A stretch of 64,000 nucleotides of DNA from a virus, in IMG/VR virus record IMGVR_UViG_3300023181_000026, positions 62,001 to 126,000 of that record. The stretch is one strand, 5' to 3'. Each line of letters begins with the position of its first letter. Positions within the stretch are counted from its first letter, which is position 1. The position numbers were made by a program, and so were the translations under genes. Shown in pieces: positions 20,335 to 62,013 of this stretch. The notes under the pieces were generated by a model. The model saw only the letters and a program-made list of their open reading frames with translations, was not told the origin of the DNA and made no database searches.

Positions 20335-21921
20335 TTATATACCGTCAGCAAAAACAGGAACTGGTTTTGTAGCATAGTTTGTACAGTCTACTAATACAGC
20401 TTCGGTTGATAAGAATACTATGGCAACACTTAAAGCATTTCTTAAGGCGGATATAGTAACTCCTACAGGATCTAGTATTCCTGATTTATCTAAGTCTACT
20501 ATTTTATCTTTTATTACATCGAATCCTTTTTTACCTTTTACTTTGGTTTTTAATTCTTCTATCTGTTCTTTTGAGTATCCTGCGTTTAATAGGATTTGTT
20601 GGAACGGGTATTGAATTGAATTTTGTATTACTGTCTGACCTTCATTCTTAATTTTCATTCTTTTTGCGGCGTTTAAAAGTGCTGTTCCACCTCCTAATAC
20701 CACTCCGTCTTTATAAGCTACTGTAAGGGCGTTAACAGCGTCTACAATCCTATCTCTCTTCTCTTTCATCTCCATCTCTGAAGTTGCTCCTACATATATT
20801 CTAGCTACTCCTCCTTTCAGTCTTGCAACTCTTTCCTTCAACAGTTTTAAATCCGAAACATCTTCTGTGATATTTTGAAGTTCTAAAAGTGAAGTTACTT
20901 TTTCTTCAATTAAGTTATTTGTTTTACTATTTATAAAAGATGTGTAATCCTCGGTTAAAATTAATTTCTCTATCTCTCCTAAGTCTTCTACAGTAGCTTT
21001 GGAAATATCGTCATCCTTTTCTTGTAAGAACAGTTTAGAACCACAAACCAAAGCTATATCTTCCATAGCTTCCTCTCTAAATTGTCCAAATTCTGGACTT
21101 TGCATTACAGTAACCTTAATCTTATCAGCCATTCTTGTAGATATCAATCTTTGAAGTAGTAAAGGGGCTATTTCATTACATACTATAAGTAGATGGTCAC
21201 CCTGTGTTTTTTCCAGAATAGGGAGTATCTCTTCTTCTCTTTCTATTCTACCTATATATAGTAGTATTTTTGATTTTTTATATTCCGCTGTCTTTTTTAT
21301 TGTGTCCTGAAAAAAATATTGAGATTCAGGAGCCATTTTCATTTTAAGTCCTTTAGAAGTTTCTACATAAGTTTTAGAAGTCCTTGATTCTTCCACTGAT
21401 ATAAAACCATGTTCTCCTACCTCTTGAAATGTTTCTGCTATTAGCGTTCCTATTTCATCGTCATTGTTAGCAGATATAGTAGGTATAGCTTTCATTCTTG
21501 GGAAATCATCTTTTATGCTTATTGCGGATTTTTCTAAGTAGCTTATAACATCCTCTGTTGCATTTTCCATCTCTTTTTTAAGTTGATAAAATGATTTTCC
21601 TTCCTCTAAAACTTTTATACCTTCTTCTACAATGGCTTGAGTAAGTATGCAACTCGAACTCGTTCCGTCTCCTACAGCTTCATTAGTTTTTATTGCAGCA
21701 GAAATAATCATATTAGCCCCCATATTTAAATGAGGGTCTTCAAGTATTATACTATTTGCCACCGTAACTCCGTCCTTTGTGACTAAAGGTATTGAGTATG
21801 GTTGGTCTATAGCTACAGGTAATCCTTTTGCACCTGCTGTCACTTTAACCGCATTAGCTACTATGTCTAGTCCTTCTTTAAGTCCTTTTCTTGCCTCTTT
21901 ACCGTAAATAATTTTCTTCAT
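20335..21921 (-). CDS. groL: Phage-encoded group I chaperonin (GroEL-like)
   Basis: The 528-residue protein has GroEL signatures in order: KDGVTVANSIILEDP (Asp of the ATPase site), NEAVGDGTSSSCILTQ (GDGT nucleotide loop), an apical domain (about 190-370), and VDAVNALTVAYKDGVVLGGGTALL with the conserved Asp and GGG. It lacks a Gly-Met-rich C-terminal tail and is shorter than the usual 540-550 residues. It overlaps groES by 1 nt. It is likely used to fold a virion protein, with the neighbouring capsid, portal or terminase as candidates, with the cognate phage GroES. Confidence 0.92.
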   Translation of the reverse strand: MKKIIYGKEARKGLKEGLDIVANAVKVTAGAKGLPVAIDQPYSIPLVTKDGVTVANSIILEDPHLNMGANMIISAAIKTNEAVGDGTSSSCILTQAIVEEGIKVLEEGKSFYQLKKEMENATEDVISYLEKSAISIKDDFPRMKAIPTISANNDDEIGTLIAETFQEVGEHGFISVEESRTSKTYVETSKGLKMKMAPESQYFFQDTIKKTAEYKKSKILLYIGRIEREEEILPILEKTQGDHLLIVCNEIAPLLLQRLISTRMADKIKVTVMQSPEFGQFREEAMEDIALVCGSKLFLQEKDDDISKATVEDLGEIEKLILTEDYTSFINSKTNNLIEEKVTSLLELQNITEDVSDLKLLKERVARLKGGVARIYVGATSEMEMKEKRDRIVDAVNALTVAYKDGVVLGGGTALLNAAKRMKIKNEGQTVIQNSIQYPFQQILLNAGYSKEQIEELKTKVKGKKGFDVIKDKIVDLDKSGILDPVGVTISALRNALSVAIVFLSTEAVLVDCTNYATKPVPVFADGI

Positions 21922-22172
21922 TATGCTCCTAAAATATCGTCTTCTCTAATTACTATTATTTCTTTTCCTTCAAGCTCTACGTTTAAACCTGTTTGTTTTT
22001 GTTTTATTATAGTTTGTCCTACAAGATCCCTATCTACTACTGAATCTCCTATAGCTATAACTTTAAACTTATAGTCTTCAAAATCAAATTCCTGATTAGA
22101 ACTTGAAGTAAGTAGATTACTTTTCTTAATTTTTTCTAGAAACACTCTGTCTTTTTTTGGTTTTATCTCCAT
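21921..22172 (-). CDS. groS: Phage-encoded co-chaperonin (GroES-like)
   Basis: The 83-residue protein keeps the GroES outline: PKKDRVFLEKI at the start, a Ser/Asn-rich mobile-loop region (about 17-30), KFKVIAIGDSV, and the C-terminal EIIVIREDDILGA equivalent to the canonical VRESDIL ending. It overlaps terL by 10 nt and groEL by 1 nt. The classical IVL loop tripeptide is not obvious (NLLT instead), which fits co-evolution with the phage GroEL. Confidence 0.85.
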   Translation of the reverse strand: MEIKPKKDRVFLEKIKKSNLLTSSSNQEFDFEDYKFKVIAIGDSVVDRDLVGQTIIKQKQTGLNVELEGKEIIVIREDDILGA

Positions 22173-25100
22173 CTTGAAAATTTACTTGTATCTGTAAAGA
22201 ATTGTTTTTGTTTATATTGTCTTGATTTTTCCTTTTTCTGTTGCTGCTCTCCACTTTCCACTTTTACACCTACTGCATCTAAATAATCTGCCCAAGCTAA
22301 TGCGTGTGAAAAAGCAATCATTCTATCGAAGTTGCCTCCTGCCTTGTAATTAATAATTTCGTCTAGTAAATATATATCATTAATTCTTGTAATACCAAGA
22401 GCTTTTCTAGGGCTACCATCTTCATCAAATCCTATGATCAACTCCTCATTACAATAATTTAAAAGACTTTTCATCAAATGCGACTGATTCTTAGGTGTAG
22501 GATATAGTCCATAAGGAGTGTTAGCTGAAGCTTTTGGATTAATTCTTTTAGAGAAGTCTACTCCATCTGCTAGTAATAAATCTGCTTTTCCTTTTCTTTC
22601 CAAATATCTTATGAATCCGATATCCGCATTTTCCATAAGACACTGCGCATTAAACCCTTCTATTAACCATTCACAGTTTCTATCGAAATTATCAGGTATT
22701 GGAGGTCTTGAACAATAAGAAGCTAAAATACATCCTGCAAATGGATCGTCTAAAAGCCCTTCTCTTCTCAATATATAAAATGCACCTACAGATTCTGTTC
22801 CAGCTTTTGTCTGTTTATAAGGGTCAAGACCTGAAACATTTAAACCATAAGGAGGCATATCTGTAGGAATTTCATCAAATAATGTAACGGGAGCGTCATG
22901 TACTCCGCCTCCAAAAGGAAATTCAACTGGGCGTTTTGATGATAAAGTGTATTCTAACTTACTGCCTACTAAAGTTAAGTCTACTAGTTTGCCTGTTAAT
23001 CCTTGTTCAACTAAATATTGTCTGTGTCTTTGAGCTTCTTTTATAGGAAATGGATTTCCATTATCTGACCTCAATATATCATCTACATCTAGAGGATAGT
23101 ACATTACATACTTATCATACTCTGTAGGATCTTTTACTAGCTTTTTCCTATTATTAATAAATAAATCTTTTGCAAATCTCCAGTCAGTTTCACCTAGTTT
23201 TATCTTTTCTAAGTCTGGGGATGGAGTTTTTATTCTAAGATAGTCTTTAAGATTTGTTTCTTTTTTAAAATTGCCTTCTTCATATCCAAACTGGCCAGGA
23301 ACAAATATTCCAAAACTTCTTCTCTTCCATGTAATTAAATCCTTCTCTTCTATTCTATTTTCTAATCTATCCCAGTTCATTGGCAATAAATCATAAGTCT
23401 CAGGATTCATCATCATCTTTATAGCGTCTGTTGAAAGTTCCGCGTTTCCAGATGTACCAGTTAGAATCGGTACGCATTTCCAACCATGAGGTGTTTTAAA
23501 TGAAGGTAAGGCAGCAGTGTAAGGTGCAATGCAATCAAATTTTCCGCAATTATGGGTAACTATGTAATCTCCCGCTATAAAAAGTTTATCTTCATTGTCT
23601 ACTTTTATACAATATGCATCATCAATTCTTGACTTTTCTATATTCGTTATATTAACTCTAGTTCTGTAAAAATCTGCCTTACCTCCTTCTCTTTTTTTAA
23701 ATCTGTCTATTTTTCTTTCTAAATTAAATAGGCATTCATCTGCATAAAAATGTATTACATAAGATTTTTTACCTTGTTTATACTCTCCTTTGTATGTAAA
23801 TTTGGGATACTTTATAGAAACTTTAACTCTTATACCTAGACTTCTAAGTATTCTGACTACTGAATCCTTTATTCTTTCTTCCGATGTAGATATAGACTGA
23901 CCTCCTCTTTTATCTATTGTACCATCAGTATCTCCTAAGCCTTTTATAAATTGCTTTCTTTGTTCTATACTACCTCTCTCGTAGATTTCATTTATATTTT
24001 TCAGTTTAAAAGTACCTAAGGTTTTTAGATTTTGTATGTGAGAGTTAGTCTTTCCAGCTTTTTTCTTTACGTGTATTACATCACATACTGGAGATTGCTT
24101 AGGAGTATAACAGGAGTACTCTAGATCTATAGACTTAGCATAGTCTTTTATAGACTCTATTATTTGATTATCCATGCTTACAAAGCTCCCCCTATGGCAA
24201 TTACCATCTCCTGTAAATAAGCCCATTATGTAGGGGTCTATTAATAAATCTCTTTCTTCATATTCTATAGCTTTAGATAAAGGTATACTGTAAATAGATT
24301 TTATTACTTTCTCATGTCCATATCTATGATCTTTTTGAAAATATCTAAATTTTTCTAGAAGTTCCTTTGTTGACTTTACTGAGTGTTCTTTACTATTATT
24401 ATTTCTTACAGACCATAAATGATTTTCGCAGCACTCTATTTCTCTTCCGTCTGAAAAAGATATTTTATATAATTGTCTATTTTCAAATTTATGTTTTTCG
24501 AGCACTCTAGTTAACTTTCCATCTCCTCCATATATCTCATCACCAATTTCTATATCTTTTATTGGTATAGTCTTATCTTTAAGGTAAATCAAAGTATCTT
24601 TTTGTAAAGCTTCATCTAATATAAATACACTTGGTGCAGCACCTGCTGTTTTTTCAGACTTTTTAGTTTGTCCCTTCTCTAAGTTACGTATATAAATGTC
24701 TGAGTGAACAATAGGTGTATTAGCTTTGGTTTTCAATCCTAACTGAATGTGACTAGTCCAGTCGTTAGAATTATTCTCCATGTAGAAAGCATGGTTTATT
24801 TCCCCCATTGAAGTCTGAATAAGACGTGTTATCATCTCTAAGTCTTCTTTACTTCCCCCTGATACTGTAGCTTGAGAATTTGGCTTTATTAGTGCTTTCC
24901 AATGTGTTATTGAAGCTAAATCCGTCGATTTAGAGAACCTACGTGAGCCAAAAACTATCATTCCTTTATTACTTTTTTCAGCGTCATTATAATTTTCTGC
25001 TATAAAAAGTTCATTATCCCTCATTGGGGGTACTATGATCGGCTCCGTCCCATCTTCTTGAGGTATAGGTGTTTTAAAATAATTACAATGAAAATATAAC

Positions 25101-25270
25101 CAAGGGTGTACCCAATATCCATTTATGTTGACACCATAAGTAATTTTCTTCTTTTCTTCTTCGTAGAATTCTAAGACATCTTTACTTTGCTCCCAATAGT
25201 TTTTAGAGTTATCATATATAGGAGGATTTTTCATGTTTATGAAAAACTCTGGACTAGTGCTTATTGACAT
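22163..25270 (-). CDS. terL: Terminase large subunit precursor containing an intein
   Basis: The 1035-residue precursor would splice to about 681 residues. The N-extein holds the packaging ATPase: a Walker-A-like GSRRFSKST (about 108-116) and Walker B VFILDE (215-220). The C-extein starts CGKFDC and contains the motor TGTSGN motif, and then a nuclease RNase-H-like domain with LNVSGLDPYKQ, MENADIGF and a late acidic AWADYLDAVG. The intein occupies residues 221-574, immediately after the catalytic Walker B Glu. Neighbours are GroES and portal. It would package DNA through the portal. Confidence 0.9.
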   Translation of the reverse strand: MSISTSPEFFINMKNPPIYDNSKNYWEQSKDVLEFYEEEKKKITYGVNINGYWVHPWLYFHCNYFKTPIPQEDGTEPIIVPPMRDNELFIAENYNDAEKSNKGMIVFGSRRFSKSTDLASITHWKALIKPNSQATVSGGSKEDLEMITRLIQTSMGEINHAFYMENNSNDWTSHIQLGLKTKANTPIVHSDIYIRNLEKGQTKKSEKTAGAAPSVFILDEALQKDTLIYLKDKTIPIKDIEIGDEIYGGDGKLTRVLEKHKFENRQLYKISFSDGREIECCENHLWSVRNNNSKEHSVKSTKELLEKFRYFQKDHRYGHEKVIKSIYSIPLSKAIEYEERDLLIDPYIMGLFTGDGNCHRGSFVSMDNQIIESIKDYAKSIDLEYSCYTPKQSPVCDVIHVKKKAGKTNSHIQNLKTLGTFKLKNINEIYERGSIEQRKQFIKGLGDTDGTIDKRGGQSISTSEERIKDSVVRILRSLGIRVKVSIKYPKFTYKGEYKQGKKSYVIHFYADECLFNLERKIDRFKKREGGKADFYRTRVNITNIEKSRIDDAYCIKVDNEDKLFIAGDYIVTHNCGKFDCIAPYTAALPSFKTPHGWKCVPILTGTSGNAELSTDAIKMMMNPETYDLLPMNWDRLENRIEEKDLITWKRRSFGIFVPGQFGYEEGNFKKETNLKDYLRIKTPSPDLEKIKLGETDWRFAKDLFINNRKKLVKDPTEYDKYVMYYPLDVDDILRSDNGNPFPIKEAQRHRQYLVEQGLTGKLVDLTLVGSKLEYTLSSKRPVEFPFGGGVHDAPVTLFDEIPTDMPPYGLNVSGLDPYKQTKAGTESVGAFYILRREGLLDDPFAGCILASYCSRPPIPDNFDRNCEWLIEGFNAQCLMENADIGFIRYLERKGKADLLLADGVDFSKRINPKASANTPYGLYPTPKNQSHLMKSLLNYCNEELIIGFDEDGSPRKALGITRINDIYLLDEIINYKAGGNFDRMIAFSHALAWADYLDAVGVKVESGEQQQKKEKSRQYKQKQFFTDTSKFSRWR
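23549..24610 (-). mobile_element. Class 3-like intein with LAGLIDADG endonuclease in terL
   Basis: The 354-residue insertion runs from Ala221 (ALQKDTLIYLKDKT) to Asn574 (YIVTHN) with Cys +1. The Ala first residue excludes standard class 1 chemistry. A block B HxW (H284, W286), a block F Cys (C554, DAYC) and a block G Thr (T572, VTHN) fit the W-C-T triad of class 3 inteins. The central part has two dodecapeptide motifs, IMGLFTGDGNC and IKGLGDTDGTI, with acidic residues kept, so the homing endonuclease appears intact. Confidence 0.85.
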
Positions 25271-33761: not shown

Positions 33762-34760
33762 ATGGCAAAAAAGCAGGTTACAGAAGATTCTACATTATCA
33801 GCAATTGATAAACTTTACGCAAAATATAAAAAAACAGATAATATTTTTGAAGCTCCAAAAAGTTTAGAGGATATAGATGTTTCAGTTGAAAGAATGATTA
33901 ACCCGTTCTTATCATTTGATAGATATCTAGGAGGAGCTCCAGCTTACGGAAAAATTACAACATATTCGGCATTTGCAAGCTGCGGTAAAACTTCACTAGC
34001 GTTAGCCTTAGCTGGAGCAAACCCCGATAAAGTTATAGGTTTTAGTGATAATGAATTTAACTGGAGTGATTCTTCCTACTTATGGATTGACAAATATTTT
34101 GGCATAGAAAAAGAAAGAATACATATTTTACAGCCAACTTATTTAGAAGAAGGTGCGGAAATGGTTGAGGATTTATGTGAAGTTGCAGATATAGTTATTT
34201 TTGATGGATTTGACTCACTAGCTCCTAAAGGAGAATATCAGGCAACTATGGAAGAGCAACAAATGGGATTACAAGCCAGAGCATATAAGAAATTCTTTCG
34301 CAGGTCTATGGGTAAGATATATAAATCAAAAGCTGCTCTTATCATAACAAATCACTTATATGAAAATATAGGGAATGTATTTGAGCCGTTTAAAGAACCA
34401 GGTGGTAGATCTATCCATGACTTCGCATCACAAAAATTATATCTTACGAGAAGTAACGTAAAGGACGTAAAGACAGGAAAAACTGTAGGTCAAGATGTAA
34501 ATGTAACTGTAAATAAGGATAAATTATCGGGCAATAGAGGTGCTAAGTTTACACTACCTTATGATAATGTAAATGGATTTGATGTTGAAATGGATATCAT
34601 AAACAATGCAGTGGACTTAGGTGTAATTAAACAGTCAGGGGCATTTTTCAGTTATGAAGGTACTAATATAGGCCAAGGTAAAGTAGCAGCTAAAAATACA
34701 CTTAAAGAGAATCCTGACCTTACGGTGGAAATAGTATTTAAATGTAAAGAGTTATTTTAA
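33762..34760 (+). CDS. RecA/UvsX-like recombinase
   Basis: The 332-residue protein has the RecA-fold ATPase motifs: a P-loop AFASCGKTSLALALAG (Lys at about 76), Walker B ADIVIFDGFDSLAP (Asp about 148), and a Q-rich segment EEQQMGLQARAYKKFFRRSM. NHLYENIGNVFEPFKEPGGR, equivalent to the RecA L1/L2 NQ region, and FASQKLYLTR follow. The first P-loop Gly is Ala. It ends with an FSYEGTNIGQGK segment resembling the RecA C-terminus. It likely drives strand exchange in replication and repair with the neighbouring SSB and NinG-like nuclease. Confidence 0.8.
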   Translation: MAKKQVTEDSTLSAIDKLYAKYKKTDNIFEAPKSLEDIDVSVERMINPFLSFDRYLGGAPAYGKITTYSAFASCGKTSLALALAGANPDKVIGFSDNEFNWSDSSYLWIDKYFGIEKERIHILQPTYLEEGAEMVEDLCEVADIVIFDGFDSLAPKGEYQATMEEQQMGLQARAYKKFFRRSMGKIYKSKAALIITNHLYENIGNVFEPFKEPGGRSIHDFASQKLYLTRSNVKDVKTGKTVGQDVNVTVNKDKLSGNRGAKFTLPYDNVNGFDVEMDIINNAVDLGVIKQSGAFFSYEGTNIGQGKVAAKNTLKENPDLTVEIVFKCKELF

Positions 34761-61710: not shown

Positions 61711-62013
61711 ATGAGCCAATTCTTAGAAGACTTTAAAAAATATCTTGCAGAAACACCCAGAGAACAGATAGAAGCTGATTGGAAAGCAACAGAAAAATAT
61801 GATCAAGTAGGAATACCTGTTGATGAGTTTATAGAATTAAATAAAGGGTATAAATTCACTAAAGAACTCCCTCCACAATTTAAACATGAATTCAGAAGTA
61901 TACCATATGAAGAGATTATAGATAATAGAAGTTCAGCTTATGCCTTTATAGATTTTAATAATTCGCCGTATAGAGAGGAAACAAATCAAGAAGAAAATAA
62001 TAAAGCATGTTAA
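61711..62013 (+). CDS. Acidic hypothetical protein
   Basis: The 100-residue product (MSQFLEDFKKYLAETPREQI) is helical with a Pro/Glu-rich end. It overlaps the next gene by 7 nt. The function is unknown. Confidence 0.5.
   Translation: MSQFLEDFKKYLAETPREQIEADWKATEKYDQVGIPVDEFIELNKGYKFTKELPPQFKHEFRSIPYEEIIDNRSSAYAFIDFNNSPYREETNQEENNKAC

Follow-up and report, generated by a model that had tools for sequence, protein, structure and literature searches.

A large terminase gene (terL) that carries a long extra segment directly behind its Walker B glutamate raises the question of what this segment is, and how a functional packaging ATPase could be produced in its presence. The gene lies on the minus strand of a 64,000-nucleotide stretch of viral DNA (the window; positions 62,001 to 126,000 of IMG/VR record IMGVR_UViG_3300023181_000026). 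As a sequence-only reading of the window had described, terL reads VFILDE (residues 215-220 of the ORF), then 354 residues that start with Ala and end in VTHN, then CGKFDC, and all coordinates, residues and motifs given there were correct on re-reading of the ORF. The insert is an intein, far beyond chance. It is nearly certain that this is a class 3 intein of full length, bearing a PI-SceI-like LAGLIDADG endonuclease and set directly behind the Walker B glutamate of TerL; class 3 splicing and homing are predicted for it.

The interrupted terminase gene and its phage

The features of the locus, all on the minus strand of the window, are as follows.

22163..25270 (-): terL precursor ORF, 1035 aa (N-extein 220, intein 354, C-extein 461)
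24611..25270 (-): N-extein, TerL residues 1-220, with Walker A-like GSRRFSKST and Walker B VFILDE
23549..24610 (-): class 3 intein, 354 aa, ORF residues 221-574, Ala1 to Thr-His-Asn354
24413..24421 (-): block B His64-Leu65-Trp66 (His B:10, Trp B:12; H284 and W286 of the ORF), context CCENHLW
24203..24223 (-): LAGLIDADG motif 1, GLFTGDG, ORF residues 350-356; Asp135 aligned to PI-SceI Asp218
23921..23941 (-): LAGLIDADG motif 2, GLGDTDG, ORF residues 444-450; Asp229 aligned to PI-SceI Asp326
23609..23611 (-): block F Cys334 (F:4; C554 of the ORF), predicted initiating nucleophile, context AYCIKV
23549..23557 (-): block G Thr352 (G:5; T572 of the ORF), His353 and Asn354, context IVTHN574
23546..23548 (-): +1 residue Cys575, predicted second nucleophile, followed by GKFDC; common to all three crAss-like Walker B carriers
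22166..23548 (-): C-extein, 461 aa, residues 575-1035, with coupling motif GTSGN and a nuclease domain (acidic motifs SGLDPYK, LMENAD and NFDRMIAF)

Joined by computation, residues 1-220 and 575-1035 form a large terminase subunit of 681 residues, the length that had been anticipated for the spliced protein. Both exteins are intact, including the Walker and nuclease motifs, and the ORF is open. The PHROG TerL family phrog_6681 matched best downstream of the insert (E=5.8e-85), while other TerL PHROG profiles matched the insert itself and were evidently built from intein-bearing members. A group I intron or other structured RNA, a tRNA and an alternative genetic code were considered and rejected, as there was no Rfam match and no tRNA, and the ORF is open in the standard code.

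The insert ends as inteins do, with His-Asn followed by Cys (THN354, Cys575). An intein-profile search, proposed as a check by the sequence-only reading, placed the NCBIfam end models at the junctions (intein_Nterm from residue 222, intein_Cterm at 552-575), with weak matches below the curated cut-offs. The two LAGLIDADG motifs had been read as an endonuclease, and this is borne out by Pfam matches to Hom_end (E=7.5e-13) and LAGLIDADG_3 (E=5.8e-9) and by the alignment of an acidic residue in each motif with PI-SceI residues 218 and 326, which we take to be the catalytic aspartates of that enzyme. Because Asp135 and Asp229 align with these residues, the endonuclease looks intact; the element is probably active, and homing is predicted.

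The phage resembles Cellulophaga phage phi4:1 and the crAss-like phages, to which it appears to be related: its TerL is 39% identical to that of phi4:1, the order of its head genes is the same as in phi4:1, and its capsid protein matches Crass_capsid weakly, below the cut-off. The virus record, of 131,611 bases and possibly incomplete, contains one TerL and one intein of the terL kind, and a search of it with the terL intein as query found no further inteins. Genes for GroES (83 aa, Cpn10) and GroEL (528 aa, Cpn60) lie at 20335-22172 (-), between terL and the portal gene, with GroES overlapping the end of terL; in phi4:1 and in the contig L056, the portal gene directly follows terL. The phage also encodes a RecA with a RecA C-terminal domain (window 33762-34760, +).

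Class 3 signature, fold and predicted splicing

Class 3 inteins lack a nucleophile at position 1 and possess instead Trp at B:12, Cys at F:4 and Thr at G:5 (PMC5222942; PMC5050341). The terL intein begins with Ala1, and its W66, C334 and T352 are in register with the M. smegmatis DnaBi1 class 3 intein (PDB 6bs8) and with 84 related phage inteins. Among the 85 aligned inteins, His64 is conserved in 85, Trp66 in 83, Cys334 in 85 and Thr352 in 84, and the columns of His353 (G:6) and Asn354 (G:7) hold the same residue in 85 of 85. A profile of 11 inteins had 6bs8 as its best PDB sequence match (E=5.1e-24), with Ala1, H-x-W, Cys and THN all in register; the alignment on which the proposed class assignment depended thus puts its Trp, Cys, Thr and terminal Asn in the DnaBi1 columns. 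DnaBi1 itself requires Cys118 (F:4), and its Trp67/Cys118/Thr137 triplet is visible in the crystal structure (PMC6195587). Departures from the signature occur elsewhere: the TerL intein of Vibrio phage VCO139 (L012:1288-2301), otherwise class 3, has HIN in place of HxW and thus lacks the block B Trp, and a Walker A class 3 intein (L045:2433-3158) has Ser in place of Thr at G:5 (VSHN).

An AlphaFold2 model of the intein, built with 29 sequences, reached a mean pLDDT of 93.1 and a pTM of 0.91. In Foldseek searches, this model matched PI-SceI over its whole length (E=2e-21), and the class 3 DnaB inteins 6bs8 and 6riy at about 2 A over 81-86 columns, which is part of the splicing domain, with 28-29% identity. 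The intein shares its splicing fold and residues with Msm DnaBi1 (6bs8) and MchDnaB1 (6rix), which lack an endonuclease and occupy another host protein and site, and its whole-length fold, including the LAGLIDADG endonuclease, with the VMA intein PI-SceI, which is eukaryotic and belongs to class 1.

By the class 3 route, the precursor would be translated whole, after which Cys334, aided by His64 and Thr352, would attack the Glu-Ala bond to give a branched thioester at block F. The acyl group would then pass to Cys+1, cyclisation of Asn354 would free the intein, and an S-to-N shift would join FILDE to CGKFD, yielding the 681-residue packaging ATPase/nuclease. By cutting terL alleles that lack the intein, the endonuclease would presumably spread the element. 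Given the position of the insert and the single TerL in the record, splicing is predicted to be needed to rebuild the ATPase.

Other readings of the same residues were weighed against this scheme. Ala1 and Cys+1 would also fit a class 2-like intein, with direct attack of Cys+1 on the upstream splice junction and a merely coincidental Trp-Cys-Thr set, but the triplet is nearly invariant in the 85 relatives, among them Gaia gp2, and aligns with that of the biochemically proven class 3 intein Msm DnaBi1, which makes this reading highly improbable. There is likewise only a very small chance that the intein is degenerate, either dead for splicing or capable of cleavage only, with TerL inactive or supplied from elsewhere. 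A class 3 intein, Arth_1007, is called a pseudogene in one published account (PMC3196547); in the terL intein, however, all splicing residues and both endonuclease aspartates are intact, as are the exteins, the ORF is open, and no second TerL is present in the 131.6-kb record, which may be incomplete.

The insertion lies in the catalytic centre, and this would suit regulated splicing that holds packaging back, for instance by a disulfide between the catalytic Cys334 and Cys60 or Cys61. Both of these cysteines sit in block B, and class 3 Msm DnaBi1 is redox-sensitive (PMC6195587). Cys61, three residues before His64, takes the place of Asp in DnaBi1 and Thr in class 1 inteins, and recurs in 11 of 37 representative relatives; Cys at the Cys60 position is found in 17 of 37. 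Such residues are common in phage class 3 inteins, and the redox idea was set aside on that ground. Moreover, five tested TerL inteins, including that of Gaia gp2 in a reporter, spliced quickly (PMC5050341), and the patchy distribution fits a selfish element. A regulated switch is accordingly judged quite unlikely. The earlier suggestion that terminase activation is coupled to splicing found no support as a form of regulation; it holds only trivially, insofar as a Walker B site still interrupted by the intein is not expected to work. Class 3 splicing and homing by the LAGLIDADG domain remain the preferred predictions for the locus.

Occupied and empty alleles of the Walker B site

Comparison with uninterrupted TerL homologues, which run through the Walker B site without a gap, fixed the insertion point where it had been placed. 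The Walker B region is uninterrupted in 40 of the 41 related TerL loci from IMG/VR; the one occupied locus, L022, is the same contig as L006. The site is empty in phi4:1 and Lbo-JY46, and intein-free TerLs read DE followed by V, I or C; no close intein-free sibling of the window phage was found. Class 3 inteins occupy the same site in two unannotated IMG/VR contigs, L056 and L006, which read FILDE/A...THN/CGK (slashes mark junctions), so that the crAss-like carriers at this point comprise three distinct phages. Both of these inteins have the Trp-Cys-Thr triplet and two LAGLIDADG motifs. L056 came from a scan for intein relatives and is additional to the 41 loci. When viral contigs were scanned with the intein alone, one relative was recovered; with the 11-row intein alignment too diverse for use as a query, a three-row alignment was scanned instead. 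A scan of GTDB genomes gave one TerL relative, which was left out, its match starting at the end of a contig stretch.

Once near-duplicates had been collapsed by hand, 32 intein-free lineages had Val or Ile after DE and 3 had Cys, while all three carriers have Cys (Fisher p=0.0024, relatedness not corrected). A class 3 intein can splice only with Cys, Ser or Thr at +1, so splicing would fail in an allele with Val or Ile; the insertion hit Cys alleles, or else Cys arrived with the intein. In the flanking DNA of the three same-site loci, no raised identity indicative of co-conversion was found at the junctions (14-18 of 30 bases), and arrival of Cys with the intein is therefore not favoured.

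Walker A carries class 3 inteins in L045, L047 and L048, three of the 40 loci uninterrupted at Walker B, and also in csAssE-Sib (L003) and in the fragment L004. The csAssE-Sib TerL, annotated only as a terminase, contains a 241-aa class 3 mini-intein (L003:1828-2550). The crAss-like TerL genes at L045:2043-6020 and L047:1965-5942 have two inteins each, an endonuclease-less class 3 intein in Walker A and a class 1-like intein (CMPPGER...SVHN/CDPYK) just before the nuclease aspartate. In L004:1453-4087, an unverified record, the TerL frame is broken downstream of the Walker A intein, probably by assembly errors.

Intein lineages and earlier reports

Insertion sites in mycobacteriophage TerL were catalogued by Kelley et al. 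(2016), including TerL1-e, a class 3 site at Walker B with Gaia gp2 as its representative (PMC5050341). The Gaia gp2 sequence (FIILNE/ALALDT...VTHN/S) places its intein at the same position as that of the window, directly after the Walker B acidic pair (VFILDE/C versus FIILNE/S), and both are full-length class 3 inteins with an endonuclease region. They differ in TerL family, in the +1 residue (Ser in Gaia, Cys in the window) and in their branch of the intein tree. For crAss-like phages, TerL inteins were described by Yutin et al. (2021; PMC7886860). The intein of csAssE-Sib is class 3 by sequence and comes from a crAss-like phage, as in the window; however, it and those of L045 and L047 are endonuclease-less, of about 241 aa, and split Walker A between K and T, whereas the window intein is full-length and lies at Walker B. 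Class and site are thus already published, and the window represents another phage group and a separate intein lineage.

In the intein tree, the window intein falls near L056, L006 and the Walker A intein of L048 (support 97/44), with L056 and L006 grouped together (98/93), while the Gaia Walker B intein belongs to another supported group (99/97). A single clade of all four Walker B inteins was rejected (p-AU 0.0055), which places the window intein outside the TerL1-e lineage, whose members would share an ancestor apart from inteins at other sites. The TerL tree differs: L056 groups with the window phage and phi4:1 (100), L006 lies in the other main clade (100), and L056 and L006 as TerL sisters were rejected (p-AU 0.00014). 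Together with the 98/93 support for L056 and L006, the contrast between their intein identity (49.9%) and extein identity (32.2%) suggests that inteins have been transferred across TerL clades. For the window intein itself there was no sign of transfer, its identity to L056 being 39.2% and that of the extein 43.1%, and the intein data do not reject the window and L056 as sisters (p-AU 0.13). Identities of the window intein run from 39% to L056 through 35.5% to L006 to 32% to Gaia.

The capture of the TerL Walker B codon by a separate intein lineage, in every case ahead of Cys+1 and with relatives also at Walker A, is modestly new. A broader proposal, with about an even chance of being right, is that class 3 inteins of two or more lineages (actinophage and crAss-like) have independently landed at the codon that follows the Walker B glutamate. 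On this view, the crAss-like lineage would have switched both between remote TerL clades and, within a single gene, between Walker A and Walker B, and would be tolerated at the latter site only beside Cys+1.

While the existing picture is unchanged by this finding, a full-length, probably active class 3 intein in a phi4:1/crAss-like phage joins the small set of Walker B insertions, and same-site relatives and many empty alleles are available for comparison with it. Together they offer natural material for studying why inteins come to lie in the active centres of ATPases and by what means those of class 3 pass from phage to phage.
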